Below, in pieces: positions 1,004-19,205 of a stretch of 64,000 nucleotides of DNA. The notes below the pieces were generated by a model that saw only the letters and a list, made by a program, of their open reading frames with translations, made no database searches and had not been told where the DNA came from. Source of the stretch: Azospirillum baldaniorum (lineage in GTDB: Bacteria > Pseudomonadota > Alphaproteobacteria > Azospirillales > Azospirillaceae); assembly GCF_003119195.2 (NCBI RefSeq), contig NZ_CP022255.1, positions 496,001 to 560,000 of the forward strand, written 5' to 3'. Made by a program: the position numbers and the translations under genes. Position 1 is the first letter of the stretch, and the number at the start of each line of letters is the position of its first letter.

Positions 1004-2683
<1,680 letters not shown>

Positions 2684-2697: not shown

Positions 2698-3771
2698 TCA
2701 TTCCGGCAGGATGCGGCGCTTCTGGAGTTCCTGGAGGAGATCGACGAACATCTCCTCGCTGTCCACGCAGTCGTGGAAGCCCAGCTTGCGCGCTTTGATC
2801 GTGCTCATGTGGTGCGGGTTGGGGCGCTGGCCGTAGCCGAACAGGAAGTCGGCGAACTGCCAGGACGGCACGACCTCGGTGTATTTGTAGGGCTTGAGAC
2901 CGTGCTTGGCGACCACGCGGTCCCAGATCGGCTCGTTCTGCGGCATGATGCGGGCCAGCGAGAAGGGTTGCGCCGGCTCCAGCTCCATGCGGAACAGCTC
3001 CGCCACCTTGGGAAACACGTTCTCCCAGACATAGACGTCGCCGTTGGCGATGTTGAAGACCTGGTTGGCGCATTGCGGGCTGGTGCCGGCCCATTCGGCG
3101 GCCTTGGCGATCAGCCGGGCGTCGGTCGCCTCGCCGATGCGCGACGCCCCGCCGGGGAAGCGCAGCGGCAGGCCGTATTCGCGCGACACCGCGGCGAAGA
3201 CGCCGATGGCGGTGATGATGTTCAAGGGGCTGCCGACCGCGAGGCCGCAGACGATCTGCGGGCGCAGCACGCTCCAGCTCCACTCCTTGCCCTGCTGGCG
3301 TTCGCTGATCCAGTCCTGCTGGTCGTAGTAGAAGTTGGGGCGCATGTAGCGTTGGTCGCTCTCCCGCGCTGGCTGGCGGAAGGGGCCGAGATGGCCGCCA
3401 TAGGCCTTGGTGCCCTGCAACAGCGTGATGTGGCGCAGGTTGGACGACACCGCCTCGACGTTCTCGACCACGTTCTTCAGCATGGCGAGGTTGGTCTCGA
3501 CATGGTCCCATTCCGACCAGCCGCGCGTCACGTCGGGCTTCTCGTAGACGGCGGTGTAGCAGATGTTGGTGACGCCCTTGATCTCGCGCAGGTTGCGGCA
3601 GTCGTCGGGGTTGCGCAGATCGACGGCCGCCCATTCGGCGGTGGTCTCGAAATCCGGAGTGCGGCGCGACACGCCGCAGACGTCCCATTCCGGGGAGGCT
3701 TCGAAATGCTCCAGCATCGGGCGGCCGACGGTCCCCAGCGCACCCACGATCAGCATCTTCTGACGGGCCAT
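2698..3771 (-). CDS. PRISE-type SDR reductase (progesterone 5-beta-reductase/iridoid synthase-like)
   Basis: This 357-residue atypical short-chain dehydrogenase has the N-terminal NADP(H) motif IVGALGTVGRPMLEHF. It also has the family signatures LLQGTKAYGGHLGP and NFYYDQQDWI; the tyrosine of the latter replaces the usual YxxxK and is typical of the PRISE group. Characterised members reduce the C=C bond of enones such as steroid 3-oxo-4-enes or 8-oxogeranial. ATG 3771 is preferred over the in-frame GTG at 3777 because AAGGA lies 8 bases upstream of it. It is placed between the Liv-type transporter and the acyl-CoA synthetase, suggesting reduction of an unsaturated carbonyl in the same pathway. 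The substrate is not known. Confidence 0.87.
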   Translation of the reverse strand: MARQKMLIVGALGTVGRPMLEHFEASPEWDVCGVSRRTPDFETTAEWAAVDLRNPDDCRNLREIKGVTNICYTAVYEKPDVTRGWSEWDHVETNLAMLKNVVENVEAVSSNLRHITLLQGTKAYGGHLGPFRQPARESDQRYMRPNFYYDQQDWISERQQGKEWSWSVLRPQIVCGLAVGSPLNIITAIGVFAAVSREYGLPLRFPGGASRIGEATDARLIAKAAEWAGTSPQCANQVFNIANGDVYVWENVFPKVAELFRMELEPAQPFSLARIMPQNEPIWDRVVAKHGLKPYKYTEVVPSWQFADFLFGYGQRPNPHHMSTIKARKLGFHDCVDSEEMFVDLLQELQKRRILPE

Positions 3772-3797
3772 GAACACGATCCTTCTGTGCGGAATTC

Positions 3798-4532
3798 TTA
3801 GAAAAGGGTCATCAGGTATTGGCGGTCGCCCAGCGGTTCGGGCGGGCCCTCGTAAATCTTGCGGCCGGTGCGCAGCACGGTGACGCTCTGCGCGATCGGC
3901 AGGGCGTGGACGACGTTCTGCTCGACCATCAGCACGGCCATGCGCAGCGCCCGGTTCACCTCGGCGATGGCCTCCATGACGCGCTGGACGAGGTTGGGGG
4001 CGAGGCCGATGGACGGTTCGTCGAGGATCATCACGTCGGGCCGGTGCATCAGCGCCATGCCCATCGCCAGCATCTGCTGCTGGCCGCCGGACATGGTGCC
4101 GGCGATCTGGCCGGCGCGTTCGCGCAGGATCGGGAACAGGTCCATCACCGCGTCGCGGTTCGCCCGGATTTCCGCCGGGTCCTGCGCCGTGTAGGCGCCA
4201 AGTTCCAGATTCTCGCGCACGGTCAGGCTGCGGAAGATGCCGTGCCCCTGCGGAACCAGCGCGATCCCCGCCTTCACGTTGTCGGCGCAGCGCCGCCGGG
4301 TGATATCCTCCCCCCGGTAGCGTACGGTCCCGGCGGAGGGGCGCAGCAGCCCGAAGACGGAGCGCACCAGCGTCGTCTTGCCGGCCCCGTTGTGGCCCAG
4401 CAGCACGCGGATTTCGCCGGCCCGCACCGTCAGGTCCACGTCGTGGACCACCGCCCGCTTGCCGTAGCCGGCGCTGAGGCCGCGCACCTCCAGGACGGGT
4501 TCGGCGATCGGCATGGTGTGAATCTCGGTCAT
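3798..4532 (-). CDS. livF: Branched-chain-amino-acid-type ABC transporter ATPase LivF
   Basis: This 244-residue ATP-binding subunit energises import through the LivH/LivM pore. It shows Walker A GHNGAGKTT, the signature MSGGQQQML, Walker B VMILDEPSIGLAP and the H-loop region VEQNV. It is the shorter LivF type. The start ATG at 4532 overlaps the stop of the fused permease-ATPase gene by 4 bases (ATGA), indicating translational coupling. HAAT/Liv transporters also carry aromatic acids, dicarboxylates and other acids, so a catabolic operon suggests a carboxylic acid substrate rather than leucine. Confidence 0.94.
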   Translation of the reverse strand: MTEIHTMPIAEPVLEVRGLSAGYGKRAVVHDVDLTVRAGEIRVLLGHNGAGKTTLVRSVFGLLRPSAGTVRYRGEDITRRRCADNVKAGIALVPQGHGIFRSLTVRENLELGAYTAQDPAEIRANRDAVMDLFPILRERAGQIAGTMSGGQQQMLAMGMALMHRPDVMILDEPSIGLAPNLVQRVMEAIAEVNRALRMAVLMVEQNVVHALPIAQSVTVLRTGRKIYEGPPEPLGDRQYLMTLF

Positions 4533-6232
4533 CCGAAATACCTCTCGGCCAGTTCGCGGTCGCGCATCAGCGTGTCCGGCGGTCCCTTGGTCAGCACGCG
4601 GCCCTCGTCGATGAAGACGATCTCGTCGCAGACGCCGCGGATGACCTCCAGATTGTGCTCGATGATGCAGACGGCCTTGTTGGCGCGGGCGAGGTCGCGG
4701 ATCACCCCGCAGATGCGCTCCACCGTCACGGTGTCGAGGCCGGACAGCGGCTCGTCGAGCAGCAGCACGTCGGCCCCGGTCGCCAGCAGCCGGGCGATGA
4801 CCAGCAGCTTCTCCTCGGCGTAGGAGAGGTTGGCGGCGGTCTCGTCGGCCTTGGCGAGCAGCCCGACGAAGGAGGCGATCTCCAGCGCGCGGGCGACGTT
4901 CTCGCGGTCGGCCCGGCGAACCAGGCCGGGGCGGAAATAGACGTCCAGCGGGCGGTCGCCCGGCTGTGCGGGCAGCGAAACCAGGATGTTCTCCACCACC
5001 GTCAGCTTGGTGAAGAGCTTCAGGTCCTGGAAGGAGCGGGCCAGCCCGGCGGCCACCACCTCGTGCGGCTTCAGCGTCGTCATGTCGCGGCCCCGGTAGA
5101 GGATGGTGCCGCCGGTCGGGCGCAGGAAACCGGACAGCAGGTTGAAGGCGGTCGTCTTGCCGGCGCCGTTGGGGCCGATCAGCCCGACGATCTCGCCGCG
5201 CTTCAGGTCGATGGTCAGGTCCTTCACCGCCTGGATGCCGCCGAAGTGCTTGGACAGCGAGGTCGCGGAGACCACCACCTCCCCCGGTGTGCCGCCTGCG
5301 CGCTCCAGCGCGCCCATGAGCTGGCCGTTGGCGGGAACGCTGGAGCGCGCGGCCCCGGTCGGGGTGCGGAACACCGTCTCGGGGAACAGCCCCTCCGTGC
5401 GCAGGCGCAGGATGACGATCAGCACGACGCCGTAGATCACCTGCCGCACCATGTCGGCGATGTCGCCCGGCACATGGACGAACTTCAGCCCCTCCGGCAA
5501 CAGCACGAGGATCGCCGCCCCGGCCAGCGAGCCCCACAAATTGCCCATGCCGCCCAGGATCACCATGGCGAGGATGAGAATGGTCTCCTCGATGGTGAAG
5601 GATTCCGGGTTCACGAAGGCGATGTAATGGGCGACCAGCGTGCCGGCGACGGAGGCCAGCCCCGCCGACATCGCGAAGACCACCAGCTTCATGCGGACGA
5701 GATTCTTGCCGACCGCCTGGGCCGCCGCCTCGTTCTCCCGCATGGCGCGCAGGGAGCGTCCGAAGGGCGAGGCGCCGAGCCTCCAGGCGACCGCGCAGCA
5801 CAGAGCCGCCATCACCACGGCCAGCGGCAGGAAGGTCACCGGGCTGGTCAGCGCCGTGCCGAACAGCGACACCGGGGGAATGCCGGCGATGCCGTCCGGT
5901 CCGCCGGTCAGCGGCTTGCTGTTCATCAGCACGTCGATGGTGATGGCCTGGAGCGCCAGCGTGATGACGACCAGATAGTGGCTGCCCACCCGCATGGCGG
6001 GAAAGGCGACCAGCAGGCCGATGCCGGCGGTGACCACCATCCCGGCCAGCAGGGTGAGGGGAAAGCCGATGCCGAGCTTCGTCGCCAGGATGCCGGCGGC
6101 GTAGGCGCCGCTGGCGTAGAAGGTGGCGTGCGCCAGGGCGAAGATGCCGCCGAAGCCGATCAACAGGTTGAAGGAGGTCGCCAGGATGCCGTAGAGGCAG
6201 ACCATGACGAGGATGTGGGCGAGATACTCCAT
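4529..6232 (-). CDS. Fused Liv-type permease (LivM) and ATPase (LivG)
   Basis: The first ~290 residues of this 567-residue protein form a LivM-like permease with about eight hydrophobic segments (start MEYLAHILVMVCLYG). A linker of about 25 residues follows, then a complete LivG-type ATPase with Walker A GPNGAGKTT, a signature region LSYAEEKLL and Walker B VLLLDEPLSGLD. The signature is LSYAE rather than LSGGQ, a common LivG variant. Such fusions are widespread in Alphaproteobacteria. A purine-rich GAGGAGAGGG lies upstream of the ATG at 6232. It works with the neighbouring LivH, LivF and periplasmic protein as one importer. Confidence 0.94.
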   Translation of the reverse strand: MEYLAHILVMVCLYGILATSFNLLIGFGGIFALAHATFYASGAYAAGILATKLGIGFPLTLLAGMVVTAGIGLLVAFPAMRVGSHYLVVITLALQAITIDVLMNSKPLTGGPDGIAGIPPVSLFGTALTSPVTFLPLAVVMAALCCAVAWRLGASPFGRSLRAMRENEAAAQAVGKNLVRMKLVVFAMSAGLASVAGTLVAHYIAFVNPESFTIEETILILAMVILGGMGNLWGSLAGAAILVLLPEGLKFVHVPGDIADMVRQVIYGVVLIVILRLRTEGLFPETVFRTPTGAARSSVPANGQLMGALERAGGTPGEVVVSATSLSKHFGGIQAVKDLTIDLKRGEIVGLIGPNGAGKTTAFNLLSGFLRPTGGTILYRGRDMTTLKPHEVVAAGLARSFQDLKLFTKLTVVENILVSLPAQPGDRPLDVYFRPGLVRRADRENVARALEIASFVGLLAKADETAANLSYAEEKLLVIARLLATGADVLLLDEPLSGLDTVTVERICGVIRDLARANKAVCIIEHNLEVIRGVCDEIVFIDEGRVLTKGPPDTLMRDRELAERYFG

Positions 6233-6248: not shown

Positions 6249-7112
6249 TCACGCCCGGCGGACGATGCCGGAGGGGCGGGCGAGCAGGAACCCGAACAGC
6301 ACCACGAAGACGATGGTGTTCTGCCACTCGGTGGGGATCTGCCACATGCCCAGGCTCTGCACGAAGGCCAGCAGGAAGGCGGCGATGACCGCCCCGCGCA
6401 GCGATCCCACCCCGCCGACGATCACCGCGACGAAGGCGACGAACACCGCGCCGAAGCCCATGTTGGGGTTCAGCCCGTCGCGCAGCAGGACCAGCGCCCC
6501 GGCCACCGCCGACACCGCCGATCCCAGCGCGAAGACCAGGATGGACAGCCGCGTGGTGTCGATGCCGATGACGGTGGCCATCTCGCGGTTGTCGGCCATG
6601 GCGCGGATGGCCTTGCCGTAGCGGCTGGCCCGCAGGAACAGCGCGATGCCGCAGCCGACCAGCAGCGCCGCCGCCACCTGCCCCAATTGAACCGTGGTAA
6701 AGAAGGCGTTGCCGACGAAATGCACGTCGTAGGCGACGCTGTCGACCGTCTTGACCCCGGTGCCGAAGACGATGCCGATCAGGTTCTTCATGACGATGAA
6801 CAGGCCGAGCGAGGCGACCAGAACGACGAAGGGCGGGCTGCCGCTGATTTCGAACGGGCGGTAGATGAACAGGTAGCAGCCGACGCCCAGCGCCGCGGTG
6901 AAGGCGATCCCCAGCAGCACCGCCGCCCAAAACGGCAGCCCGACCAGCGCCGCCAGCGCCCAGATGGCGTAGGCGCCGACCGCATAGACCGGCCCGTAGG
7001 CGAAATGCACGACGCCGGTCGTCCCGAAGATCAACGCGAAGCCCATCGCCAGCAGGGCGAAATGCGCGCCGTTGAACAGACCGTTCAGGGTCAGTTGGAT
7101 GAGCAAATCCAT
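6249..7112 (-). CDS. livH: Branched-chain-amino-acid-type ABC transporter permease LivH
   Basis: This 287-residue inner-membrane protein has about eight transmembrane helices. The LivH pattern is clear: GLFNGAHFALLAMGFALIFG near the N terminus and AFVAVIVGGVGSLRGAVIAA in the conserved cytoplasmic loop that meets the ATPases. ATG 7112 has AGGAG about 10 bases upstream. It follows the substrate-binding protein gene after a gap that contains a REPIN-like repeat, and precedes the LivM-LivG fusion by 16 bases. It would form a heterodimeric pore with the LivM half of the fused protein. Confidence 0.95.
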   Translation of the reverse strand: MDLLIQLTLNGLFNGAHFALLAMGFALIFGTTGVVHFAYGPVYAVGAYAIWALAALVGLPFWAAVLLGIAFTAALGVGCYLFIYRPFEISGSPPFVVLVASLGLFIVMKNLIGIVFGTGVKTVDSVAYDVHFVGNAFFTTVQLGQVAAALLVGCGIALFLRASRYGKAIRAMADNREMATVIGIDTTRLSILVFALGSAVSAVAGALVLLRDGLNPNMGFGAVFVAFVAVIVGGVGSLRGAVIAAFLLAFVQSLGMWQIPTEWQNTIVFVVLFGFLLARPSGIVRRA

Positions 7113-7273: not shown

Positions 7274-8419
7274 TCATTCGCCCGAGGTGAACTTCACGAA
7301 TGTCTGTTGGCCGTTCTCCAGGCGGAACACCGCGACCGGCTTCTGCGCCACGCCGTTCTTGCGGAAGGTCAGCGTCTTGCCGTAGACGCTGTCGAAGGTC
7401 GGGTTTTCCCACAGCGCCTGGACCAGACGCTCGCCGCTGTAATAGTCGCCGCCCTTGGCCTTCGCCCGCCGGATCAGCTCGGCGATGACGTAGACGCCCT
7501 CGTAGTAGTTGGCGGCGTAGAAGTCCGGCATCTCGCCGAACTTGGCCCGGTAGGCGTCGGCGAAGCGCTTGGACCAGGGATTCTCGTCGGTGGCGGCGAA
7601 ATAGTCGGTGACGACCTCCACCCCCTCGGCGTGCTTGCCGGCGACCTTGGTGTCCTCGGCGGTCCATTCCATGCAGTAGACCGGCTGCTTCATGCCCAGC
7701 TCGCGCATCCGCTTCACCGCCAGCCCGGCCTGCGGCGTGGTCGGCCAGTTGGCGATGGCGTCGGGCTGGGAGGCGCGCAGCTTGGCGACCTGGGTGTCGA
7801 TGTTGGCGGCATCGGCCTGGAACTGCTCGGCGGCGACCATCTTCAGCCCCATGCCCTCCCACGCCTTGGTGGTGGCGGCGATGGTGGCGTCGCCGAACTC
7901 CGACTTGATGGCGATCTGGGCGAGCTTCTTGGCCCCCTGCTCGGCCGCGCGGTGGGCGATGCCGGCGGCCAGATCGGACGCCATGGAGCGGATGTTGAAC
8001 ATGTAGGGGGAGGTGCCGACCGTCTGGGCGCTGACCCCGCCGCCGTTGATCATCATCACCTTCTTCTGGTCGCCGATGGGCATGGTGGCCAGCGTCACCG
8101 TGGAGAAGGAGGGGAGTACCGCCTTCACCCCCTCGACGTCGACCAGCCGGTTCATGCCGGCGACCGCCGCCTGGGCGCTGCCGCTCTTGTGGTCCTCGAT
8201 GACCAGCTGCAGCTTGATGCCGTCGATGCCCCCCTGGGCGTTGATCTCGTCCACCGCAAGCTGCGCCCCGGCGCTCATCACCTTGCCGTAATGGGGCGAG
8301 GCGCCGGTCATCGCGAAGATGCCGCCGATCTTGTAGACCGCCGGGTCGGCGGCCAGCGCGGCGCCGCTGGTGAGCGCGCTGCTCAGCACGAGCGCGGCGA
8401 ACAGGGTGCGTTTCGACAT
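7274..8419 (-). CDS. Periplasmic substrate-binding protein of Liv-type ABC transporter
   Basis: This 381-residue type I periplasmic binding protein (Peripla_BP_6/LivK fold) has an N-terminal signal peptide ending near SGAALAADP. The mature start VYKIGGIFAMTGASPHYGKVMSAGAQLAVDEINAQGG is typical of the family. ATG 8419 follows GGGAGGGA by 3 bases, a strong ribosome-binding site, and gives the shortest sensible signal peptide; a longer reading frame exists but has no signal character. It delivers substrate to the LivH/LivM-G/LivF importer encoded downstream. The ligand is unknown; the operon context suggests a hydrophobic or aromatic acid. Confidence 0.92.
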   Translation of the reverse strand: MSKRTLFAALVLSSALTSGAALAADPAVYKIGGIFAMTGASPHYGKVMSAGAQLAVDEINAQGGIDGIKLQLVIEDHKSGSAQAAVAGMNRLVDVEGVKAVLPSFSTVTLATMPIGDQKKVMMINGGGVSAQTVGTSPYMFNIRSMASDLAAGIAHRAAEQGAKKLAQIAIKSEFGDATIAATTKAWEGMGLKMVAAEQFQADAANIDTQVAKLRASQPDAIANWPTTPQAGLAVKRMRELGMKQPVYCMEWTAEDTKVAGKHAEGVEVVTDYFAATDENPWSKRFADAYRAKFGEMPDFYAANYYEGVYVIAELIRRAKAKGGDYYSGERLVQALWENPTFDSVYGKTLTFRKNGVAQKPVAVFRLENGQQTFVKFTSGE

Positions 8420-8494: not shown

Positions 8495-9241
8495 TCAGCG
8501 GGCAAAAGACAGCCCGGACAGCAGCCGCCGGACGGACGGCGCCGCGTGGTTCTCGGCCAGCAGCGGGGCCAGCCGCGCGGTCTTTTCCGCCATCGATGGG
8601 CGGTCCTCCATCCGCAGGATGCGCCGGCCCGCCGCCAGGGCGTCCAGTCGGTCGCGGTAGTAGGCGATGCGCGCCTCCGCCGTCTCGGCAAAGCCGTCTG
8701 CGGGCAGGATCTCCGTCAGGAAGCCGAAGCCGTAGGCCTGCGCCGCGTCCATCATCCGACCCCCCGCCAGGATCTGGAAGGCCAGCGCCGCCGGCAGCCG
8801 TTCCGTCAGGGCGGCGTGGACGAAGGCCGGGTAGAGGCCGAAGCGCATCTCCGGAAAGCCGAACTGCACATCGTCGGCGCCCAGCACGAGGTCGCTGAGG
8901 CACGCCACGATGCAGCCAGCGCCCAGCGTCCGGCCGTGGACCACGCTGATCACCGGCACCGCCGATCCATGCAGCGCCTGCATCGCCGCCCGCAGCGCCT
9001 CCTCCTGGGCGGCGAAGGCCTCGGCACCGCGGCTCATCTCGGCGACATCGCCGCCGGCGCAGAAGCCGCGCGGTCCGGCGCCATCGATCGCCACCAGGGC
9101 CGCGCCGTCGGCGGGCGCGCCGTCCACGGCCTCGGCCAGCGCCCGCAGGGTCGCGGTGTCGAGCGCGTTGATCTTCGCGGGGCGGTTCAGAGTGATGCGC
9201 CGCAGATCGCCGTCGTCGCGGACGAGAAGCGTGCCGGTCAT
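8495..9241 (-). CDS. Enoyl-CoA hydratase/isomerase (crotonase family)
   Basis: This 248-residue crotonase-fold protein shows the first oxyanion-hole region GPRGFCAGGDVAEM and the second one HGRTLGAGCIVACLSD. The acidic residue FPEMRFGL sits at the position of a catalytic glutamate. It would hydrate or isomerise a CoA-linked substrate. The start overlaps the stop of the MaoC-like gene by 4 bases. It lies between the MaoC/DUF35/thiolase-like group and the transporter. Some members of this group are hydrolases or isomerases, so the precise reaction is open. Confidence 0.9.
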   Translation of the reverse strand: MTGTLLVRDDGDLRRITLNRPAKINALDTATLRALAEAVDGAPADGAALVAIDGAGPRGFCAGGDVAEMSRGAEAFAAQEEALRAAMQALHGSAVPVISVVHGRTLGAGCIVACLSDLVLGADDVQFGFPEMRFGLYPAFVHAALTERLPAALAFQILAGGRMMDAAQAYGFGFLTEILPADGFAETAEARIAYYRDRLDALAAGRRILRMEDRPSMAEKTARLAPLLAENHAAPSVRRLLSGLSFAR

Positions 9242-9639
9242 GACGCAGCCCTCCCCGGCCCGTGCAGGATGCGTCCGGCGATCACCGTTTCACCATGCTG
9301 GTTGTCGATCCAGACGTCGTAGCCGTCGCCGTCGGCGCGGCGCTGGCCGCCCGCGGTCACCACGTCGTCCTCGCGCACCGGGCGCAGGAAGCGGATGTCG
9401 AGCGTCGCGTCGGACACCGCCGCCTCGCCCAGGCTGTGCCGGACCGACTGCCAGAGCAGATTCACCGACAGCAGGCCGTGGGCGATGATGCCCTTCATCG
9501 GCGTCGTCGCCGCGAAGTCGGGATCGACGTGGATCGGGTTGAAATCGTCGGTCAGCTCGGCGTAGAGCCGGATCGCCGCGCGGTCGATCCGCTTGGTGAC
9601 CGGGGTCAGGCGGTCGATGGTGATCGTCCCGTCCGCCAT
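9238..9639 (-). CDS. MaoC-like (R)-enoyl-CoA hydratase, catalytic hotdog subunit
   Basis: This 133-residue single hotdog domain carries the complete hydratase-2 motif: DDFNPIHVD with aspartate 32 and histidine 37, followed by the helix MKGIIAHGLLSVN. These residues are the catalytic pair in characterised (R)-specific hydratases. The neighbouring 127-residue gene, 2 bases upstream, is a second hotdog that lacks the pair, so the two probably form a heteromer with one active subunit. Single-domain pairs of this type hydrate CoA esters with bulky chains, as in steroid side-chain breakdown. The substrate is inferred only from context. Confidence 0.88.
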   Translation of the reverse strand: MADGTITIDRLTPVTKRIDRAAIRLYAELTDDFNPIHVDPDFAATTPMKGIIAHGLLSVNLLWQSVRHSLGEAAVSDATLDIRFLRPVREDDVVTAGGQRRADGDGYDVWIDNQHGETVIAGRILHGPGRAAS

Positions 9640-9641
9640 GG

Positions 9642-10025
9642 TCAGGCCGCCCACAGGATGGTCATGCGGCCGCGGAAGCAGGGGGTCCCGTCCTCCCCCA
9701 CCGTCTCGGTGTCGAAATGGACCCAGCGGCGGTCGCGCTTCAGCTCCTTTCCGGCGCAGGCGATGCGGGTGGTCAAACGCTCCCCGACCGCCGGGCGGCG
9801 CAGCATCTCGTAACGCTGGGAGCCGTGGATATTCCCCGGCGGACGCGGCACGACGAGGCTGGAATAGGCCCGCATGGTGGCCACCGCGATCATCCCGGCG
9901 GGCATTCGCCCGTCCGGCGGGTCGTCGGGGTAGAGGCTGGTCCAGCGCTCCATCAGCGCGTCGGACAGGTGAAGCTCCTCGGCGCCGAAGGCGGCGCCCT
10001 CCCGGAGCGTGTCGAACAGATGCAT
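9642..10025 (-). CDS. Hotdog-fold partner of MaoC-like hydratase (non-catalytic)
   Basis: This 127-residue protein has a hotdog-like layout: a helix with MPAGMIAVATMRAYSSLV, then strands ending GTPCFRGRMTILWAA. The Asp-x-x-x-x-His hydratase motif of its neighbour is missing. The ATG at 10025 (MHLFDTLREG) has GGAAGGGA 6 bases upstream. The gene sits directly between the DUF35 protein and the catalytic MaoC-like gene, which favours a structural role in a mixed hydratase. It could also be a stand-alone thioesterase-like protein. The fold call is from pattern recognition and is less certain than that of its neighbours. Confidence 0.72.
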   Translation of the reverse strand: MHLFDTLREGAAFGAEELHLSDALMERWTSLYPDDPPDGRMPAGMIAVATMRAYSSLVVPRPPGNIHGSQRYEMLRRPAVGERLTTRIACAGKELKRDRRWVHFDTETVGEDGTPCFRGRMTILWAA

Positions 10026-10051
10026 GGATGGTCCCTTCCGAAGGGTTGGGT

Positions 10052-10477
10052 TCACTCCACCAGGAGCCGGACCTGCGGCAGCGCGCCGCCACCGGCCAAC
10101 GGCTCGAACAGGACGCAGACGCGCAGGCCGATGCGGGCCTCCGAGGGTGGGCAACCGCGCAGATTGACCATCAGGCGGAAGCCCTCGTCGAAATCGACCA
10201 ACGCCAGGACGTAGGGTGTGTCCGCCTTGAAGGCCGCGGTCGGCGGTCGGTGGACGATGGTGAAGCTGTGGATGGTGCCGAGCCCGGCGGACCGCTCCGT
10301 CCCCGGCCCTGCGGCCCGGCATTCGGTGCAGAAGGGCCGCGGCGGAAACTGGACATGGCCGCAGGCGGCGCAGCGCTGAAAGGTCAGCGCCCCCTCCGCG
10401 CAGGCGTCCCAGAAGGCGCGGGTGTCCGCGGTGACCAGCGGAACGGGCTTTGCGGGAGCTGCATCGGTCGAGGTCAT
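10052..10477 (-). CDS. DUF35 OB-fold/zinc-ribbon protein
   Basis: This 141-residue protein has the rubredoxin-like zinc ribbon CAACG...CTEC (cysteines 36, 39, 50 and 53). An OB-fold follows (GTIHSFTIVHRP, DTPYVLALVDFDEG, IGLRVCVLFEP), as in the DUF35/ChsH2 C-terminal group. DUF35 proteins bind and activate thiolase-like partners and can pass CoA esters between active sites. The gene lies 1 base from the thiolase-like gene and beside two hotdog genes. The same three parts form the hydratase-aldolase complexes of actinobacterial steroid side-chain degradation. A strong GGGAGGG precedes the ATG. Confidence 0.93.
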   Translation of the reverse strand: MTSTDAAPAKPVPLVTADTRAFWDACAEGALTFQRCAACGHVQFPPRPFCTECRAAGPGTERSAGLGTIHSFTIVHRPPTAAFKADTPYVLALVDFDEGFRLMVNLRGCPPSEARIGLRVCVLFEPLAGGGALPQVRLLVE

Positions 10478-10478
10478 T

Positions 10479-11627
10479 TCACGCCCTCCCCAGGATCAGC
10501 GAGCAGTGGGCGGACAGGATGCCGCCGTCGCCGTGAACGAAGGCGGTTTCCGCCCCCGCCACCTGCCGGGCCTCGGCCTCGCCGCGCAATTGCCGCACCG
10601 CCTCGACGATGTGGAACATGCCGCCCGCCGCCCCCGAATGGCCGTAGGACAGCAGCCCGCCGTGAGTGTTGCAGGGCAGGACCCCGTCCAGCTCCAGCGC
10701 GCCGTCGAGGATCGCCGGACCGGCCTCCCCCTTCGGAAAAAAGCCGATGGATTCCAGCTCGGCCAGCAGGGTGATGGTGAAGCTGTCGTAGATCTCGGCC
10801 ACGTCGATGTCCGCCGGGGTCAGCCCGGCCATGGCGAAGGCTTGCGCCGCCGATTGCCGGCAGCCGAAATCGGTCAGCGAGGGCATGGCGAAGGCGTGCT
10901 CGTGCGTGTTCATCTGGCCGTAGCCGAGGATCGACACCGCGCGGTCCGTATGGTCGGCCGCCGCGTCGGCGGCGCTGACCACCAGGGCGGCGCCACCGTC
11001 CGAGACGAGGCAGCAGTCGAACAGCCGCAGCGGGTCGGCGATCATGCGGGCGGACAGCGCCTGCTCCATGGTCAGCGGGTCGCGGGCCTGGGCCTTGGGG
11101 TGGCGGCGCGCGTGGCCGCGCTGGGTGACGGAGATGGCGGCGAGATGCTCCGCCGTGACGCCGCGCTCATGCATGCAGCGCCGGGCGACCAGCGCGTAGG
11201 CCGCCGGGATCGACATGCCGTAGGGGCGCTCGAACTGCGGATGCCCGACCTCGGCCAGCGCGGCGACGGCGCCGTTGCGCCCCAGCCCGGTCAGCCGGTT
11301 GTCGGCGCAGACGGCCAGGACGTTGCGGCAGATGCCCGCCCGCACCAACGCCGCCGCCTGCATCACCAGCGCGCAGGCGGTCGCCCCGCCGGCCTGGACG
11401 GCGGCGCTGTAGGACGGCGCGATTCCGAAATACTCGTTGAAGACCGACGACAGCATCAGATGCGGCTCGGCCAGCGAATAGGCGCAGAGCACGCCGTCCA
11501 CCTCGTCCGCCCGCAGGCCGGCGTCGGCCAGCGCCGCGGACGCCGCTTCGGCGTGAAGCGCCATGCAGCCGCTGCCGTCCAGCCGCCCGACGGCGGTGTC
11601 GGCGGCTCCGGAGATCACCGGGGTCAT
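10479..11627 (-). CDS. Thiolase-fold protein, candidate retro-aldolase (SCP2/Ltp2-like)
   Basis: This 382-residue thiolase-superfamily protein shows the C-terminal motif NTHGGLLSYGHSGAAGG (His 330) and VAEIYDSFT (Tyr 280). By eye alignment, the nucleophilic cysteine position of classical thiolases is a glycine (AVQAGGATACAL, Gly 81), while a cysteine occurs four residues later. Family members without that cysteine and with conserved tyrosines act as retro-aldolases with a DUF35 partner. The gene is followed after 1 base by a DUF35 gene. ATG 11627 overlaps the IclR stop by 4 bases. Annotation as acetyl-CoA acetyltransferase would be the default but is probably misleading. Confidence 0.88.
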   Translation of the reverse strand: MTPVISGAADTAVGRLDGSGCMALHAEAASAALADAGLRADEVDGVLCAYSLAEPHLMLSSVFNEYFGIAPSYSAAVQAGGATACALVMQAAALVRAGICRNVLAVCADNRLTGLGRNGAVAALAEVGHPQFERPYGMSIPAAYALVARRCMHERGVTAEHLAAISVTQRGHARRHPKAQARDPLTMEQALSARMIADPLRLFDCCLVSDGGAALVVSAADAAADHTDRAVSILGYGQMNTHEHAFAMPSLTDFGCRQSAAQAFAMAGLTPADIDVAEIYDSFTITLLAELESIGFFPKGEAGPAILDGALELDGVLPCNTHGGLLSYGHSGAAGGMFHIVEAVRQLRGEAEARQVAGAETAFVHGDGGILSAHCSLILGRA

Positions 11628-12469
11628 CGCGTGGTCTCCCGTGGGGAAAGGGGGGCGGCCCGGCCCGGCCCGGCGAGCTGCCGTCCGATGCGCCGCGTGG
11701 TGTCGCGCAGGTCGGCGGCCATCGCCGCGGCCCGCTCGTCGGAGAACTGCGCGGTCAGCCCGACCGCCGACAGGGCCAGGAAGGGCCGGCCCTCGGCGTC
11801 GAGGATCGGGCTGGACACCGTCGTCACGCCGCGCGTGAAGCCGTCGCGGTCCACCGCGTAGCCGGCGGTCCGCGCCTCCTCCACCTCGGCCAGGAATTGC
11901 TCGAAGGGCGGCGGGTTGTCCTGGCGGACGGCGGCGTACTGGCGGCGCATCTCCTCCACCGGCAGGCCGGCGTGCGCCGCCATGCAGCGGCCGAGCGCGC
12001 CGACCAGCAGCGGCAGCCGGTGGCCGATCCGCATGTGGATCTGGATGGCCGAGCTGGACACCGCCTGATCCACCAGCATGACGCGGTGGTCGCTGACCCG
12101 CAGCCACGCCGTCATCGGCGTCTGCCACGCGGCGGCCAGCCGTTCCAGCTCCGGATGGAGCAGCCGGGTGTAGCCGACCTGATCGAGCGCGCTGCCCGCC
12201 AGTTCCAGCAGCCCGGCGCCCAGCCGGTAGGCCTTGCCGACCTCCTCGAACTGGACCACCCGCTCCGCGGCCAGGGTCTTCAGGATGTTGAAGCAGGTGC
12301 TCGGGTTGAGGCCGAGCGCGCGGGCGACCTGCGCGCTCGACACCGCCCCGTCCTGCGCCGCCAGATGGCGCAGGATCGCGAAGGCGCTGACCACCGCGCC
12401 GACCGGCTTGCCGGCGTTGAAGGTCGTGGAAAGGGTGAAGGACTCCCGGTCCTGGTCATCGGTGAGCAT
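11624..12469 (-). CDS. IclR-family transcriptional regulator
   Basis: This 281-residue protein has an N-terminal winged helix (AILRHLAAQDGAVSSAQVARALGLNPSTCFNILKTLA) and a C-terminal GAF-like effector domain (HRLPLLVGALGRCMAAHAG, GYAVDRDGFTRGVTTVSSPI). IclR proteins bind aromatic or other small acids and control adjacent catabolic genes. It is the first gene of the minus-strand operon that runs down to 1004 and overlaps the thiolase-like gene by 4 bases, so it probably controls its own operon. GGAGAG lies 6 bases upstream of the ATG. A 14-bp inverted repeat sits just upstream at 12483. Confidence 0.94.
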   Translation of the reverse strand: MLTDDQDRESFTLSTTFNAGKPVGAVVSAFAILRHLAAQDGAVSSAQVARALGLNPSTCFNILKTLAAERVVQFEEVGKAYRLGAGLLELAGSALDQVGYTRLLHPELERLAAAWQTPMTAWLRVSDHRVMLVDQAVSSSAIQIHMRIGHRLPLLVGALGRCMAAHAGLPVEEMRRQYAAVRQDNPPPFEQFLAEVEEARTAGYAVDRDGFTRGVTTVSSPILDAEGRPFLALSAVGLTAQFSDERAAAMAADLRDTTRRIGRQLAGPGRAAPLSPRETTR

Positions 12470-12496: not shown

Positions 12497-12625
12497 TTCT
12501 ATTTTCTATGAAGATTATGAGTGCGCAAATATTGTTGGTCAAACGAATTATCTGTCCTTGGCATTGTTTGGAATGCATACCCCCATAGTCATTTTGCACG
12601 GCTGCTCCCCTCCGCGTCCCGAACG

Positions 12626-12660
12626 CAAAACGGCCCCGCCGGGAGGGGCGGGGCCGTTCG
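12626..12660 (-). terminator. Rho-independent terminator after the alcohol dehydrogenase gene
   Basis: A 12-bp perfect stem (12629-12640 with 12647-12658, AACGGCCCCGCC and its complement) with a 6-base loop is followed on the minus strand by TTTT. It lies about 40 bases past the stop of the iron-type alcohol dehydrogenase and upstream of the IclR promoter. It therefore separates the two minus-strand operons. Confidence 0.85.
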
Positions 12661-12699: not shown

Positions 12700-13866
12700 T
12701 CACCAGGCCAGTTCGAGGATCTCCCGGACGTCATCCTCCCCAGTGACCGGGCGCGGGTTGCTGCGGACCATCATGTTCTGCATGGCCCCGGCGGCGATGG
12801 CGGCGAAATGGTCGCGAGTCACGCCGACCGCCCGCAGGCTGTCGGGCTGCCCCAGGGCGCGCACCAGATCGGCGACGGCCGCCGCCGCGTCGCCGTCCTC
12901 CCGCCCCAGCGCCTGCGCCACCAGCCTTTGGCGGTCGGCGTTCACCGGGTGGTTCCAGCGCAGCACGCTGGGCAGCATGACGCAGGAGCAATGACCGTGC
13001 GGCACGTTGGCGACGGCGCCGAGCTGGTGGCCGATGCCATGGCTGGCCCCCCACTCCACCCGGCCCAGCCCGGTCGAGGCCAGCCAGACGCCGAGCTGGC
13101 TGTCCAGCCGCGCGTCGAGATCGTCCGGCCTCTCCCGGTTGGCGGGGAGGGAGCGCGCCAGCATCGCCAGCCCGTGCAGGCAGGTCGCGTCGGTGAAGGG
13201 CTGGGGCTTGCGCGAACAGACCGTCTCCACCGCGTGGTCGACGGCGCGGATGCCGGTGGACAGCCACAGCCGCTCCGGCGTGTGGACGGTCACGGCGGGG
13301 TCGAGGATGACCACCTGCCCGCCGATGTACCGCCCGGTGTAGAGGTCCTTGACCTGCCGCGCCGGGTCGGTGGCGCCACCCAGGTTGGAGAATTCGGCGC
13401 CCGACAGGGTGGTCGGCACGATGATCTGGCGCAGCGGCGGGTCCTTCACCGCCGGAACGATGCGGGTTCCGTCCTCGGCGACGCGGATGCGCACGGCGTC
13501 GAATCCGGCGGTGTCGGTGATGTCCTCGGCCAGCGCGACCAGGGCGACCTTCACCGTGTCCATGGGCGTGCCGCCGCCGACCGTGACGATCAGGTCCGGC
13601 TCCAGCCGCCGCACCTCCGCGGCCAGCGCCAGGACGGAAGCGCGCGGCACATGCTCGACGCAGGAATCGAAGACACCGGCGCAAGTCGCGCCCAGCGCGC
13701 CGCGGATGGCAGTGACGACGCCGGTTCCCCGACTCAGCGTCCGGCTCGCCACGATCAGCGCGCGCTGCTTTCCCAGCTTGGCGATGGTTTCCGACACCGC
13801 CTCCGCCGCCGGGCGGCCGTAGATGACGCGATCCTGCGCCAGGAACTCGTAGACACCCGACTGCAT
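12700..13866 (-). CDS. Iron-containing alcohol dehydrogenase (maleylacetate-reductase-like)
   Basis: This 388-residue group III alcohol dehydrogenase has the NAD-binding GGGTPMDTVK, the motif VPTTLSGAEFSN and the metal-binding set DHAVETV, GASHGIGHQLG and VPHGHCSCVMLP. Members oxidise alcohols or hydroxyacids, or reduce maleylacetate. The layout resembles maleylacetate reductase, but the signature loop is not identical. ATG 13866 is preceded by GGGAGGGA. It is the last gene of the second Liv transporter operon and is followed by a strong terminator. The gap to the upstream livF carries a type 2 REPIN-like repeat. Confidence 0.92.
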   Translation of the reverse strand: MQSGVYEFLAQDRVIYGRPAAEAVSETIAKLGKQRALIVASRTLSRGTGVVTAIRGALGATCAGVFDSCVEHVPRASVLALAAEVRRLEPDLIVTVGGGTPMDTVKVALVALAEDITDTAGFDAVRIRVAEDGTRIVPAVKDPPLRQIIVPTTLSGAEFSNLGGATDPARQVKDLYTGRYIGGQVVILDPAVTVHTPERLWLSTGIRAVDHAVETVCSRKPQPFTDATCLHGLAMLARSLPANRERPDDLDARLDSQLGVWLASTGLGRVEWGASHGIGHQLGAVANVPHGHCSCVMLPSVLRWNHPVNADRQRLVAQALGREDGDAAAAVADLVRALGQPDSLRAVGVTRDHFAAIAAGAMQNMMVRSNPRPVTGEDDVREILELAW

Positions 13867-13910
13867 GGTGGTTCCCTCCCGTCGTTGATTGATCCGGCAT
13901 GGGCACACTG

Positions 13911-13997
13911 GCCCCCACCCTAACCCTCCCCCGCTGCGCAGGGGAGGGGACCATTCTCCCTCCCCTGCGTCAGCGGGGGAGGGCCGGGGTGGGGGCA
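13911..13997. repeat. REPIN-like paired inverted repeat, type 2 (copy 1)
   Basis: The arms read GCCCCCACCCTAACCCTCCC and, inverted, GGGAGGGCCGGGGTGGGGGC. They enclose two smaller palindromes around CCCCGCTG and CAGCGGGG. The sequence type differs from the CCCTCTCCCC elements elsewhere in the window but matches the element at 18972-19079. It fills most of the gap between livF and the alcohol dehydrogenase gene. Confidence 0.78.
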
Positions 13998-14013
13998 CGC
14001 GGCTGCCGCACCT

Positions 14014-14736
14014 TCACCCGCCCAAATACGCCGCCGACAGCGCCGGGTCGGCGGCCAGTTCCACCGCCGGACCGCCGCGCACCACCTGCCCGCGCCGCAG
14101 CACGCAACCGGAATGGGCGACGCGCAGGGCGATGGCCGCCACCTGCTCGCACAGCAGGATGGTGGTGCCGCGCTCGCGGCAGACGGACTCGATGAAGCCG
14201 AAGATCTGCTGCACGATCACCGGGGCCAGCCCCAGCGACGGTTCGTCGAGCAGCAGGTAGCGCGGCTCGTGGATCAGCGCCGCCGACAGGATGACCATCT
14301 GCTGCTGGCCGCCCGACAGCATGCCCGCCGGGGTTTGCCGCCGCGGCGCCAGCATGGGGAACTGCTCGTAGACGCGGTCGGCCACCGCACGGAAGTTGCC
14401 GCCGCGGTTGCGGAAGTCCCAGGCGACCTTCAGGTTCTCCTCCACCGTCATGCGGTGGAACAGCCGGCGCCCCTCCAGCGCATGCGACAGGCCGCGGCGC
14501 GCCCGCTCGTGCGGAGGAAGCCGCGTGATGTCGTCGCCGTCCAGCGTGATGCGCCCCGCCGTCGCCGGGACCAAGCCGGAAATCGCCTTCATCAGCGAGG
14601 ATTTGCCGGCCCCGTTGGCGCCCAGGATGGCGGTGATGGTCCCCGGCTCGGCCCGTAGCGTGACGCCGCGCACCGCCTCCACCGGTCCGTAGCGGACCTC
14701 CAGCCCGTGGATCTCAAGTCCCGTGATGTCAGGCAT
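14014..14736 (-). CDS. livF: Branched-chain-amino-acid-type ABC transporter ATPase LivF (second system)
   Basis: This 240-residue ATPase has Walker A GANGAGKSS, signature LSGGQQQMV and Walker B YLLLDEPSLGLAP. The start overlaps the end of the LivM-LivG fusion gene by 8 bases. With the fused protein, LivH and the periplasmic protein upstream it makes a complete second Liv-type importer. It is only distantly similar to the LivF at 3798-4532, so the two systems are unlikely to be a recent duplication. Confidence 0.94.
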   Translation of the reverse strand: MPDITGLEIHGLEVRYGPVEAVRGVTLRAEPGTITAILGANGAGKSSLMKAISGLVPATAGRITLDGDDITRLPPHERARRGLSHALEGRRLFHRMTVEENLKVAWDFRNRGGNFRAVADRVYEQFPMLAPRRQTPAGMLSGGQQQMVILSAALIHEPRYLLLDEPSLGLAPVIVQQIFGFIESVCRERGTTILLCEQVAAIALRVAHSGCVLRRGQVVRGGPAVELAADPALSAAYLGG

Positions 14737-16525
14737 GGACGGCCTCCCCCGGGTGGGTTTCGGTGCCGAGATAGGCGGCGACCACCGCCGGGTCGCGGTA
14801 CATGCCGGCCATGCCGCCCTGGTAGATGACCCGCCCGCTGTCCAGCACGACCACGCGGTCGACCAGCTCGTTGAGGAAATCCATGTGGTGCTCGATCAGG
14901 ATCACGCCGACACCCCGTTCCTTCAGATGGCGGACCAGCCCGCCCAGCCGTTGCAGTTCGACCTCCGACAGGCCCGCCGCCGGCTCGTCGAGCATGACGA
15001 GGCGCGGGTCGGCCAGGATGACGCGCGACAACTCGGTCATCCGCTGGTCGCCGTAGGGCAGGTCGCGCACCGGCGTGTCGGCCAGATGCGACAGGCCGGC
15101 CATGGCGATGATGGCGTCGGCGCGGCCCAGCATCGCCGCGTCCTCGCGCAGGGCGCCCGGCAGGTTCAGCGCCGCCGCCAGCGGGTTCTGCCGGTAGAGC
15201 CGGTGCCCGCCGAGCAGCACGTTCTCGCGCACCGTGAAGGCGGGGACGAGCCGCGGGTCCTGGAAGGTGCGCAGCGCGCCCCGCCGGGCCACCGCGTGGT
15301 CGGGCAGTCCGGTGATGGCGGCGCCGTCGAAAGTCACGCGCCCGTCGCCCGGCCGGTAGATGCCGCTGATGATGTTGACGAGCGTGCTCTTGCCCGACCC
15401 GTTCGGCCCGACGAGGCCGAGGATCTCCCCCACCCCCACGGTGACCGACGCGTTGTCGAGCGCCCGCAGCCCGAGGAAGCTGATGGAAACCCCCTCCGCG
15501 CTCAGCAGCGGCCCGCTCCCCGATGGTTTCGGCGCGGCGGGCGGCGCGGCGGGCAGCGGCGTCACGTCCTTGGCGAAACGCGGACGCGGCAGCAGCAGCC
15601 CAGCCAGTCCGCGCGGCAGCAGGACGAAGGACAGCAGCAGGATCAGGCCGTAGACCATGAACTGGTACTCGGCGAAGATCTGGAGCTTCTCCGGCAGGTA
15701 GGTGAAGACGACGGCGCCCAGCACCGGCCCGGCCAGCGTGCCCAGCCCGCCGACCACCGCCATCACCAGCACCTCCACCGAGCGGTGCAGGCCGAAGGTC
15801 TCCGGCCCGAGATAGCCGACGAGATGGGCGTAGAAGCCCCCCGCCAGCCCGGCCAGCGCGGCGCTGAGCATGTAGGCGTTGCGCTTGGTGCGGGCGCGCG
15901 GCACGCCGATGCTGCCGGCAGCGACCTCGCTGACATGGATGGCGAAGAAGGCGCGGCCGAAGGGGCTGGTGACGAAGTTCCGCAGCAGCCACACCACCCC
16001 CGCGACCACCGCCAGCATGATCTGGAAATAGGCGGTCGGGCCGACGGACCAGCCGAACAGGGTCAGCGTCCGCAGGCCGGGCGACGGCACGCCGCTCAGC
16101 CCCATCATGCCGCCGGTGACCGAGGTCCACTCGCGCACCACCTCGTAGAAGATCATGCCGAAGCCGAGCGTCATCATGGCGAGGTAGAACTCGCGCACCC
16201 GCCCGGCGGCGAAGGACAGCAGCCAGCCGCTCACCGCCCCCATCGCCGCCCCGGCCAGCAGGGTCAGCGGCAGCGGAAGACCGAAGTTCTTCATCAGCAG
16301 GGCGGAGCCGTAGGCGCCGATGCCGAGAAAGCCGGCGTGGCCCAGCGAGATCTGACCCGCGACGCCGGTCAGCAGGTTGATGCTCTGGGCCAGCAGGACG
16401 TTGACGAGGAGGAAGGACCAGATCTGCACGGTGGCGCCGCTGACGAACTCCGCCGCGACGCCCAGCGCCACCAGCAGGGCCGCGACCACCGGGGTCCGGG
16501 TGAGGAAGGAGAGGAGATTCCGCAT
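14729..16525 (-). CDS. Fused Liv-type permease (LivM) and ATPase (LivG), second system
   Basis: The first ~320 residues of this 598-residue protein form a LivM-like permease (LLVNVLLAQSINLLTGVAGQISLGHAGF, then VLVMAVVGGLGTLAGPVLGAV). A proline- and alanine-rich linker follows, and then a LivG-type ATPase with Walker A GPNGSGKST, the signature region LPYGDQRM and Walker B LVMLDEPAAGLSE. The domain order equals that of the fusion at 4529-6232. It starts 9 bases after livH. Confidence 0.94.
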   Translation of the reverse strand: MRNLLSFLTRTPVVAALLVALGVAAEFVSGATVQIWSFLLVNVLLAQSINLLTGVAGQISLGHAGFLGIGAYGSALLMKNFGLPLPLTLLAGAAMGAVSGWLLSFAAGRVREFYLAMMTLGFGMIFYEVVREWTSVTGGMMGLSGVPSPGLRTLTLFGWSVGPTAYFQIMLAVVAGVVWLLRNFVTSPFGRAFFAIHVSEVAAGSIGVPRARTKRNAYMLSAALAGLAGGFYAHLVGYLGPETFGLHRSVEVLVMAVVGGLGTLAGPVLGAVVFTYLPEKLQIFAEYQFMVYGLILLLSFVLLPRGLAGLLLPRPRFAKDVTPLPAAPPAAPKPSGSGPLLSAEGVSISFLGLRALDNASVTVGVGEILGLVGPNGSGKSTLVNIISGIYRPGDGRVTFDGAAITGLPDHAVARRGALRTFQDPRLVPAFTVRENVLLGGHRLYRQNPLAAALNLPGALREDAAMLGRADAIIAMAGLSHLADTPVRDLPYGDQRMTELSRVILADPRLVMLDEPAAGLSEVELQRLGGLVRHLKERGVGVILIEHHMDFLNELVDRVVVLDSGRVIYQGGMAGMYRDPAVVAAYLGTETHPGEAVHA

Positions 16526-16534
16526 CGCTGGCCC

Positions 16535-17419: not shown

Positions 17420-17469
17420 GGCGTCGTCCTTTTTCTTCCCTCTCCCCCGTCGCAGCACCCGCCTTTGAG

Positions 17470-17581
17470 TCCCCTCTCCCCTCTGGGGAGAGGGTTAGGG
17501 TGAGGGGGGCCCGCATCGCCTGCGCTTTCCGTCCCCCGATATCCCCCTCACCCCGACCCTCTCCCCAGAGGGGAGAGGGGG
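17470..17581. repeat. REPIN-like paired inverted repeat, type 1 (copy 2)
   Basis: CCCCTCTCCCCTCTGGGGAG with GGTTAGGGTGAGGGG on the left is mirrored by CCCCCTCACCCCGACCCTC and CCCCAGAGGGGAGAGGGG on the right. The centre differs from copies 1 and 3. It lies between the periplasmic binding protein gene and livH, exactly as copy 1 does in the first Liv operon. Confidence 0.8.
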
Positions 17582-17620
17582 ATCGCTCCGGAGACGAAAG
17601 AAGGAGAGAGGGGAACCCAA

Positions 17621-18832: not shown

Positions 18833-18881
18833 GGCGCTTTTCCCTCCCTTATGCGGCGGAGCGTGCTGCCTCGCCTTTTTG

Positions 18882-18899
18882 AATGAACCATGAGTCATT
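18882..18899. promoter_or_regulatory. Operator-like palindrome A in divergent promoter region
   Basis: AATGAACCATGAGTCATT has matched ends AATGA/TCATT and a self-complementary centre CATG, so 14 of 18 positions are symmetric. It lies 50 bases upstream of the second Liv binding-protein gene. A related site is at 19099-19116, next to the divergent E1-alpha gene. The TetR regulator at the end of that plus-strand operon is the likeliest ligand-controlled binder, by position only. Confidence 0.6.
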
Positions 18900-19116: not shown

Positions 19117-19205
19117 TGTTTGGTCGACCAACGGAGCATCGACTCCGCACCGCGCTTTCCCACACACACCGGCGGGGCGCGGAAGAAACGCGAAGGGAGG
19201 CATCC

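Follow-up and report, generated by a model that had tools for sequence, protein, structure and literature searches.

A conserved thiolase-fold, DUF35 and hotdog gene module of Azospirillum baldaniorum, a probable CoA-dependent hydratase/retro-aldolase linked to a 2-oxoacid dehydrogenase operon

A stretch of 64 000 nucleotides from Azospirillum baldaniorum (RefSeq assembly GCF_003119195.2, contig NZ_CP022255.1, positions 496 001 to 560 000; hereafter the window, in whose numbering coordinates are given) contains five genes for a thiolase-fold protein (Thl), a stand-alone DUF35 protein, two hotdog proteins and a crotonase. The sequences and surroundings of these genes indicate that the module is real, conserved and most likely a hydratase/aldolase, which probably cuts a carboxylic acid other than a steroid. 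The favoured interpretation, given a probability of roughly 0.6, is a CoA-dependent hydratase/retro-aldolase that yields a carbonyl product identical with, or closely connected to, a 2-oxo acid for the E1/E2 components encoded in a linked operon. As a preliminary description of the sequence had stated, all five genes are present and near-contiguous on the minus strand, with gaps of -4 to 26 nt:

10479-11627, minus strand: Thl, thiolase-fold protein of 382 residues, predicted retro-aldolase with Gly81, Tyr280, Ser282 and His330 (Pfam, alignment, fold)
10052-10477, minus strand: stand-alone DUF35 protein (C4 zinc ribbon and OB fold), predicted aldolase partner (Pfam, alignment)
9642-10025, minus strand: Hot1, motif-less hotdog protein, predicted substrate-binding half of a hydratase (structure model, alignment)
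9238-9639, minus strand: MaoC, catalytic hotdog protein with an invariant Asp32/His37 dyad (Pfam, alignment)
8495-9241, minus strand: crotonase-family protein, possibly an isomerase or hydrolase rather than a hydratase (Pfam, residue comparison by eye)

Fold and active site of the thiolase-fold protein

Thl has the thiolase superfamily fold and matched Pfam Thiolase_C_1 at 1.6e-58. Its best family match, NCBIfam PRK06158 'acetyl-CoA acetyltransferase' (340.2 bits), fell under the curated cut-off of 421; the closest solved sequence was PDB 4u4e (3.5e-77) and the best structural match by Foldseek was TbSLP. Active-site columns were located by HMMER alignments of the Thl family profile to solved chains, including the bile-acid side-chain aldolase Sal (chain number in 9myr = Sal number + 24). 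Gly81 aligns on the nucleophilic Cys of the archaeal acetoacetyl-CoA thiolase 6esq, and this column is Gly in all 98 rows, comprising the query and 97 homologues left from 110 loci with a match after removal of sequences at ≥90 % identity or of length outside 360-410 residues. By the criterion of a nucleophilic Cys, Thl is not a catalytic thiolase, and a Cys acyl-enzyme is not possible because Gly81 occupies the nucleophile position. The preliminary description had read this glycine correctly; a catalytic Cys aligned to thiolases, which it named as evidence against an aldolase, is replaced by Gly81 in the alignment.

The Y280-D281-S282-F283 motif aligns on thiolase HDCF, with Tyr280 on the catalytic Tyr of both Sal and Ltp2, the sterol side-chain aldolase. 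His330 aligns on the thiolase GH histidine, and Ltp2 Tyr344 and Sal Gln352 fall in the same column. A pair of tyrosines, in EIYDSF and LSYGH, had been proposed earlier. The first (Tyr280) stands, while the second (Tyr328) sits two residues from the Ltp2 Tyr344 column. A Tyr-Tyr catalytic set was rejected, since that column is His330 in Thl and position 328 is Phe in 13 of 36 core rows (Tyr in the other 23).

The query was placed, in a tree of 77 rows, in a clade of 41 (support 100/100) that contains this core of 36 rows (97/96). Tyr280, Asp281, Phe283, His322, His365 and T241-H242-E243-H244 are found in 36 of 36 core rows and Ser282, His330 and Asp367 in 35; the exception is L095, with YDCF and Ser at 330. 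The tree set has 32 other homologues, of which 31 have His330 and 27 have Tyr280, with His at 280 in five; their residue 282 is Ala in 18, Ser in ten and Cys in four. Gly/Tyr/His thus appears to be the common pattern of the tree set, and Ltp2 (His296, Tyr344) and Sal (Cys304, Gln352) appear to be departures from it. Both lie outside the query clade, joined on two long branches, and their placement is unsure. His330 is a candidate acid in place of Ltp2 Tyr344 or Sal Gln352. The clade, separate from the steroid enzymes, is most likely one of hydratase/aldolases and would be a variant of the Ltp2/Sal type marked by an active-site signature of its own. The same genome encodes a second Thl paralogue (G000:C5:350268-351353, L002), 40 % identical to Thl; it has YDAF, keeps His330 and falls in another clade.

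DUF35, hotdog and crotonase components

Both domains expected of a ChsH2-type DUF35 protein scored over their cut-offs: zf-ChsH2 (9.2e-14, 51.4 bits, cut-off 23.2) and OB_ChsH2_C (9.7e-21, 73.9 bits, cut-off 27.1). The zinc ribbon is of C4 type, with Cys36, Cys39, Cys50 and Cys53 invariant in 33 rows, and not the Cys3His1 type of Shy, the partner of Sal. MaoC matched MaoC_dehydratas (1e-16) and its Asp32/His37 dyad is invariant in 28 rows. No Pfam match was obtained for the Hot1 protein of the window, and FAS1_DH_region was matched in five of 30 members of its alignment; the structure model is a hotdog fold and the alignment lacks the dyad motif. One hotdog protein thus carries the Asp/His dyad and its partner does not, as in ChsH1-ChsH2. 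The likeness to ChsH1-ChsH2-Ltp2 in parts and folds, the zinc-ribbon assignment, the pairing of a catalytic with a motif-less hotdog and the splitting of the two ChsH2 domains into separate genes, all put forward earlier, were borne out.

The crotonase matched ECH_1 (1.5e-30, 106.8 bits) and, nearly equally, ECH_2 (100.2 bits). When translations were compared by eye, it had Ile where the sibling enoyl-CoA hydratase at 21225-22013 carries what we take to be the first catalytic Glu. Because of this Ile, the protein is possibly an isomerase or hydrolase and not a hydratase.

Distribution and gene order

When species genomes were scanned and the best 80 of 353 kept, 79 loci were obtained, 75 of them outside Azospirillum, with up to 10 kb on each side. 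Genes were counted by tblastn or as stop-to-stop frames, since the gene caller misses some small genes. The loci outside Azospirillum were mostly from alpha-, beta- and gammaproteobacteria, with a few from other phyla. DUF35 was directly downstream of Thl in 72 of the 75 and nearby in two more (L080, L083); the last, L045, ends at Thl. Hot1 was found in 36 of 75 loci and together with MaoC in 32, the two being adjacent in 32 of 32. This indicates that the arrangement did not arise by chance, because DUF35 adjoins Thl and Hot1 lies beside MaoC at these frequencies. Two further genes were more frequent in loci with Hot1 than in the others, some loci being short: acyl-CoA dehydrogenase A (22 of 36 versus 3 of 39) and an ADP-forming CoA synthetase (11 of 36 versus 0 of 39). 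The type of transporter near the module varied (Liv, TRAP or TctC).

With the top four or five candidates per genome scored, a Thl match at E≤1e-110 was found in four genomes of a 397-genome phylum sample, the source genome included. In a family sample of 82 genomes, 34 had some Thl homologue at E≤1e-60 and 11 had one at E≤1e-110, ten of these at ≥71 % identity.

Gene order differed in a few loci. Hot1 and MaoC lie upstream of Thl-DUF35, not downstream, in Pseudoroseomonas (L044, L052), and in Quisquiliibacterium (L083) DUF35, Hot1 and MaoC are together encoded on the opposite strand. Thl-DUF35 without Hot1 occurs in two metagenome bins that bear the titles Bordetella parapertussis and Klebsiella pneumoniae (L064, L094); their gene order is that of other metagenome-assembled genomes of environmental Burkholderiales (L063, L066) and Gammaproteobacteria (L093), and the titles look misnamed.

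Linkage to a 2-oxoacid dehydrogenase operon

An operon at 19101-27422 on the plus strand, here called the partner operon, encodes the E1 and E2 components of a 2-oxoacid dehydrogenase-type complex and is followed by a regulator:

19101-20219, plus strand: E1alpha, 2-oxoacid dehydrogenase-type complex (family search)
20226-21200, plus strand: E1beta (family search)
21225-22013, plus strand: enoyl-CoA hydratase (family search)
22013-23251, plus strand: E2, lipoyl acyltransferase (family search)
23271-24443, plus strand: acyl-CoA dehydrogenase (family search)
24493-26007, plus strand: acyl-CoA synthetase (NCBIfam PRK06145, 853.3 bits, cut-off 850)
26004-27422, plus strand: divergent MmgE/PrpD protein (alignment)
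27488-28060, plus strand, approximate limits: TetR-type regulator; a TetR encoded close to these genes in other genera is 49 % identical to it (tblastn)

Fourteen module genomes were hand-picked from the 75 loci, and 12 of them contained an E1beta orthologue at 65-73 % identity, other listed paralogues there reaching at most 53 %. E1beta was 3-29 kb from Thl in ten of the 14. E1/E2 genes were already visible in seven of the picked genomes; of the remaining seven, five had the orthologue. None of the 396 other genomes of the phylum sample, each scored on its top five candidates, had an E1beta at E≤1e-125. A hand-assembled set from the genus had E1beta in four of six genomes with a Thl orthologue versus none of 22 without. 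Among loci of at least 13 kb, E1/E2 was found in ten of 28 with Hot1 versus one of 25 without (Fisher P=0.006, relatedness ignored).

The order E1alpha-E1beta-enoyl-CoA hydratase-E2-acyl-CoA dehydrogenase recurred in all 12 stretches fetched, these being chosen around E1beta matches. MmgE/PrpD was present in six of the 12, the L072 genome among them, as well as in L036 and L090; L061 and L073 additionally carried a dihydrolipoyl dehydrogenase. In Rubritepida (L072), the genes of the partner operon lie upstream of the module in the same orientation, separated from it by one acyl-CoA dehydrogenase gene and one enoyl-CoA hydratase gene. A Chloroflexi locus, whose Thl is 48 % identical, has the order Thl-DUF35-FAS1_DH hotdog-MaoC-E1alpha-E1beta-E2. 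There is thus good evidence that module and partner operon serve one pathway, because the E1beta orthologue co-occurs with the module and often lies within 30 kb of it.

E1/E2 family scores were pyruvate-dehydrogenase-like, a class that may cover several substrates, the type not being separable by scores. The MmgE/PrpD protein was aligned pairwise with 7bra, residue spacing being taken from PMC12290011, and the L090 row, a wrong gene, was excluded from the comparison across loci. Of six residues the protein keeps three (equivalents of His88, His102 and Lys266); it lacks equivalents of Glu91, His152 and Lys202, which are described as dicarboxylate-binding in known members (PMC12290011). A divergent MmgE/PrpD subfamily stands beside the E1-E2 operon in several genera. 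Beyond the partner operon, a FabG-like short-chain dehydrogenase/reductase (SDR) is followed by a protein resembling by eye the N-terminal half of transketolase (29289-30909, plus strand). The only listed family over cut-off for this SDR was a 'glucose 1-dehydrogenase' subfamily model (227.5 versus 215 bits).

Operon layout and neighbouring genes

The module belongs to a 12-gene operon in the order IclR, Thl, DUF35, Hot1, MaoC, crotonase, substrate-binding protein, LivH, LivM-G, LivF, PRISE and CoA ligase, in which ten of 11 intergenic gaps are <80 nt and the remaining one is 161 nt. The genes and sites other than the module are as follows:

12633-12649, minus strand: terminator-like hairpin that would end an upstream iron-containing alcohol dehydrogenase/second Liv unit (consensus match only)
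12514-12542, minus strand: sigma-70-like promoter match, 10/12, upstream of IclR (consensus match only)
11624-12469, minus strand: IclR-family regulator, first gene of the operon, with a 4-nt overlap with Thl (Pfam IclR_C 1.9e-19, HTH_IclR)
7274-8419, minus strand: ABC substrate-binding protein, Peripla_BP_6 (Pfam)
6249-7112, minus strand: LivH-type permease (family search)
4529-6232, minus strand: LivM-LivG fusion, permease and ATPase (family search)
3798-4532, minus strand: LivF-type ATPase (translation; annotated counterpart in A. argentinense)
2698-3777, minus strand: PRISE-family SDR, enone reductase-like (PF22917, 56.7 bits, cut-off 27)
1004-2683, minus strand: AMP-forming acyl-CoA ligase (family search)

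The operon probably starts at IclR, with the alcohol dehydrogenase and second Liv set as a separate unit, because the terminator-like hairpin and the promoter-like site precede IclR; the terminator scan found fewer such sites in the real sequence than in shuffled sequence. That second transporter is complete (substrate-binding protein, LivH, LivM-G and LivF) and lies with the alcohol dehydrogenase at 12700-18898 on the minus strand, between the two linked operons in Azospirillum. Near-identical loci occur under the names A. brasilense and A. argentinense.

PRISE, CoA ligase and Liv transporter do share an operon with the module, as the preliminary description had it. It had also let PRISE help to define the pathway, and this did not hold, because PRISE at ≥40 % identity was found only in Azospirillum and one Bosea (L081) among the 79 loci. 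The partner shared more broadly is the operon at 19101-27422, which lies beyond the coordinates of the preliminary description.

Proposed reaction and alternative explanations

From the computed fold, residues, gene order and linkage we infer a sequence of chemical steps, a complex and roles for His330 and a 2-oxo acid. An imported carboxylic acid would be converted to its CoA thioester by the CoA ligase and then desaturated by an acyl-CoA dehydrogenase. Hot1 would bind the acyl part while MaoC hydrates the enoyl-CoA to a beta-hydroxyacyl-CoA, which Thl, bound to DUF35, would cleave by a retro-aldol reaction. Tyr280 would accept the proton of the beta-hydroxyl as the bond breaks, and His330, with Ser282 nearby, would protonate the acyl-CoA enolate to release acetyl- or propionyl-CoA and a carbonyl product. 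This product would itself be a 2-oxo acid, or have a close link to one, which the E1/E2 of the partner operon converts to a further acyl-CoA. A 2-oxo acid is proposed, as product or as feeder, because a dedicated 2-oxoacid dehydrogenase operon is linked to the module.

Several observations weigh against the hydratase/retro-aldolase interpretation. Tyr302 and Cys304 are needed in Sal, where C304S shows no activity (PMC12329534); as Thl has Ser at the Cys304 position, His330 would have to take over the acid role. YDxF gives way to HDAF in five of the tree set's 32 other homologues, and the GGLLSYGHP motif does not mark aldolases, because BbsB, an annotated thiolase, has it. Hot1 was not seen in 39 of 75 loci, some of them short. 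The linkage to E1/E2 does not tell the direction of 2-oxo acid flow. The 14 module genomes all have Hot1 and are not a random sample; E1beta was under thresholds in two of them (G484, G489), as in two of the six Azospirillum genomes with Thl (G004, G045), and the four E1beta-positive Azospirillum are close relatives with Thl 99 % alike. No assay or characterised enzyme of the Thl clade was found, nor any open-licence paper recognisable as describing it, work on steroids, ibuprofen and itaconate being found instead.

Fold, parts list and the operon's genes for PRISE (an enone reductase) and CoA ligase would also fit a steroid or terpenoid side-chain aldolase of the Ltp2/Sal systems, acting on a large polycyclic acid. 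That identity is very unlikely: the catalytic sets differ, Sal and Ltp2 fall outside the Thl clade (both on long branches), and PRISE has the narrow distribution given above. The steroid substrate suggested in the preliminary description gained no support. HsaA and IpdE2 were under curated cut-off in the source genome, as in the 14 control genomes, so that there was no positive control, and on the same terms HsaA was over cut-off in none of ten module genomes (best 353 bits versus 450, in Sphingobium). No steroid-ring gene was among those named in the loci, where many neighbours are unnamed. Nothing found points to a steroid, and a non-steroid terpenoid acid could still be a substrate. Somewhat less improbable, although unlikely, is that Thl is a decarboxylase, an acyltransferase or a non-catalytic binder of CoA esters, comparable with TbSLP or with PhlABC-type acylation. 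The function of TbSLP, the best Foldseek match, is unsettled and slow malonyl-CoA decarboxylation is reported for it (PMC12329534), and DUF35/thiolase-fold pairs also include thiolases and the acylase PhlABC. A thiolase-type mechanism of acyl transfer, however, requires a Cys where Thl has Gly81, and the neighbouring hydratase genes would yield a beta-hydroxyacyl-CoA, which is the substrate of an aldolase.

A further reading, also unlikely but somewhat less so than these two, concerns the substrate. A 2-substituted succinyl-CoA could be desaturated, hydrated at the carboxylate-bearing carbon and cleaved, as by citramalyl-CoA lyase, to acetyl-CoA and a 2-oxo acid for E1/E2. This would account for the dedicated 2-oxoacid dehydrogenase and parallels the logic of itaconate/methylsuccinate degradation, in which acyl-CoA dehydrogenase, itaconyl-CoA hydratase, lyase and MmgE/PrpD isomerase act jointly (PMC12290011). 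The MmgE/PrpD genes of the window and other loci are consistent with it, as is Bosea L081, where the module is followed downstream (L081 12309-14976) by a second MaoC hydratase of RipB/Ich-like type (59.7 bits, under its cut-off of 340) and a gene of the citryl-CoA-lyase family with citrate synthase fold (334.5 bits, cut-off 193). These Bosea neighbours were seen in one locus, and the reading is kept at this low level because the window MmgE/PrpD misses half of the dicarboxylate-binding residues, an absence that also weakens MmgE/PrpD as proof of a dicarboxylate substrate. It is conceivable, if doubtful, that an undescribed proteobacterial catabolic pathway exists in which a Tyr-Ser-His thiolase-fold/DUF35 aldolase replaces citramalyl-CoA lyase on larger compounds of the 2-substituted succinyl-CoA type and the co-inherited E1/E2 takes the 2-oxo acid.

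Significance

Among proteins annotated as 'thiolase family protein' or 'acetyl-CoA acetyltransferase' the thiolase nucleophile is often missing; it is absent in 75 of the 77 tree rows, the exceptions being two archaeal thiolases. Should this clade prove to consist of aldolases, the name of a large annotation class would be wrong. Thiolase-fold aldolases have so far been worked out for steroids and indicated for ibuprofen, and would then have a wider role in the catabolism of acids. Aldolase engineering could also profit from a third active-site solution. Co-inheritance with a 2-oxoacid dehydrogenase operon offers a concrete route to the substrate through growth tests on a soil bacterium that is harmless.

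Comparison with known systems

Sal-Shy of Comamonas testosteroni (PDB 9myr), a bile-acid C5 side-chain aldolase with DUF35, shares with the window the thiolase fold, Gly at the nucleophile position, the catalytic Tyr of YDxx, DUF35 and MaoC hydratase partners and a proteobacterial host. Its residues are Tyr302/Cys304 (YDCY) and Gln352, whereas Thl has Tyr280/Ser282 and His330. Shy is a single DUF35-MaoC protein with a C3H1 zinc site and no inert partner, in contrast to the C4 site and the three genes, including a motif-less hotdog, of the window. ChsH1-ChsH2-Ltp2 (PDB 6ok1, 4w78/4wnb), a sterol C3 side-chain hydratase/aldolase, shares active and inert hotdogs, a C4 DUF35 and a thiolase-fold aldolase. 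Ltp2, however, has YDHF and Tyr344 where Thl has YDSF and His330, the inert hotdog of ChsH2 is fused to DUF35 and is split from it here, and the window genome had neither steroid-ring marker over cut-off, in a search with no positive control.

PDB 4u4e, a putative thiolase of Sphaerobacter thermophilus, shares YDSF, the same His and Gly in the nucleophile column, but belongs to a neighbouring clade of the tree; a search of open-licence papers found none on it. BbsAB, benzoylsuccinyl-CoA thiolase (PDB 7pxp), is likewise a DUF35 and thiolase-fold pair and shares GGLLSYGHP, with HDAF in the annotated thiolase BbsB against YDSF in Thl. IpfE of ibuprofen degradation is a DUF35 protein. Non-steroid retro-aldol release of propionyl-CoA from an acyl-CoA is attributed to the IpfDE 'thiolase', which acts on a dioxygenase-made ring dihydrodiol and not on a hydratase product, and is likened here by chemistry and not by sequence (PMC9195938). 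The itaconate/methylsuccinate cluster shares CoA activation, acyl-CoA dehydrogenase, hydratase, C-C lyase and MmgE/PrpD isomerase; its lyase is (S)-citramalyl-CoA lyase, where that of the window would be thiolase-fold, and 2-oxoacid dehydrogenase genes are not reported for it in the extract of PMC12290011.

Three features were considered as novel and set aside. Proteobacterial Sal/Shy and Ltp2/ChsH systems are already published (PMC12329534, PMC11321319, PMC12502768), which removes occurrence outside the actinobacteria. A split DUF35 is preceded by the separately expressed domains of TA441 ORF40, with DUF35 as its own piece (PMC12502768), and by the separate DUF35 of ChsH4/Atf1 (PMC10398937), and a first non-steroid use of retro-aldol chemistry is preceded by IpfDE (PMC9195938). 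Compared with these systems, the new part is the linkage of the module to a 2-oxoacid dehydrogenase operon.

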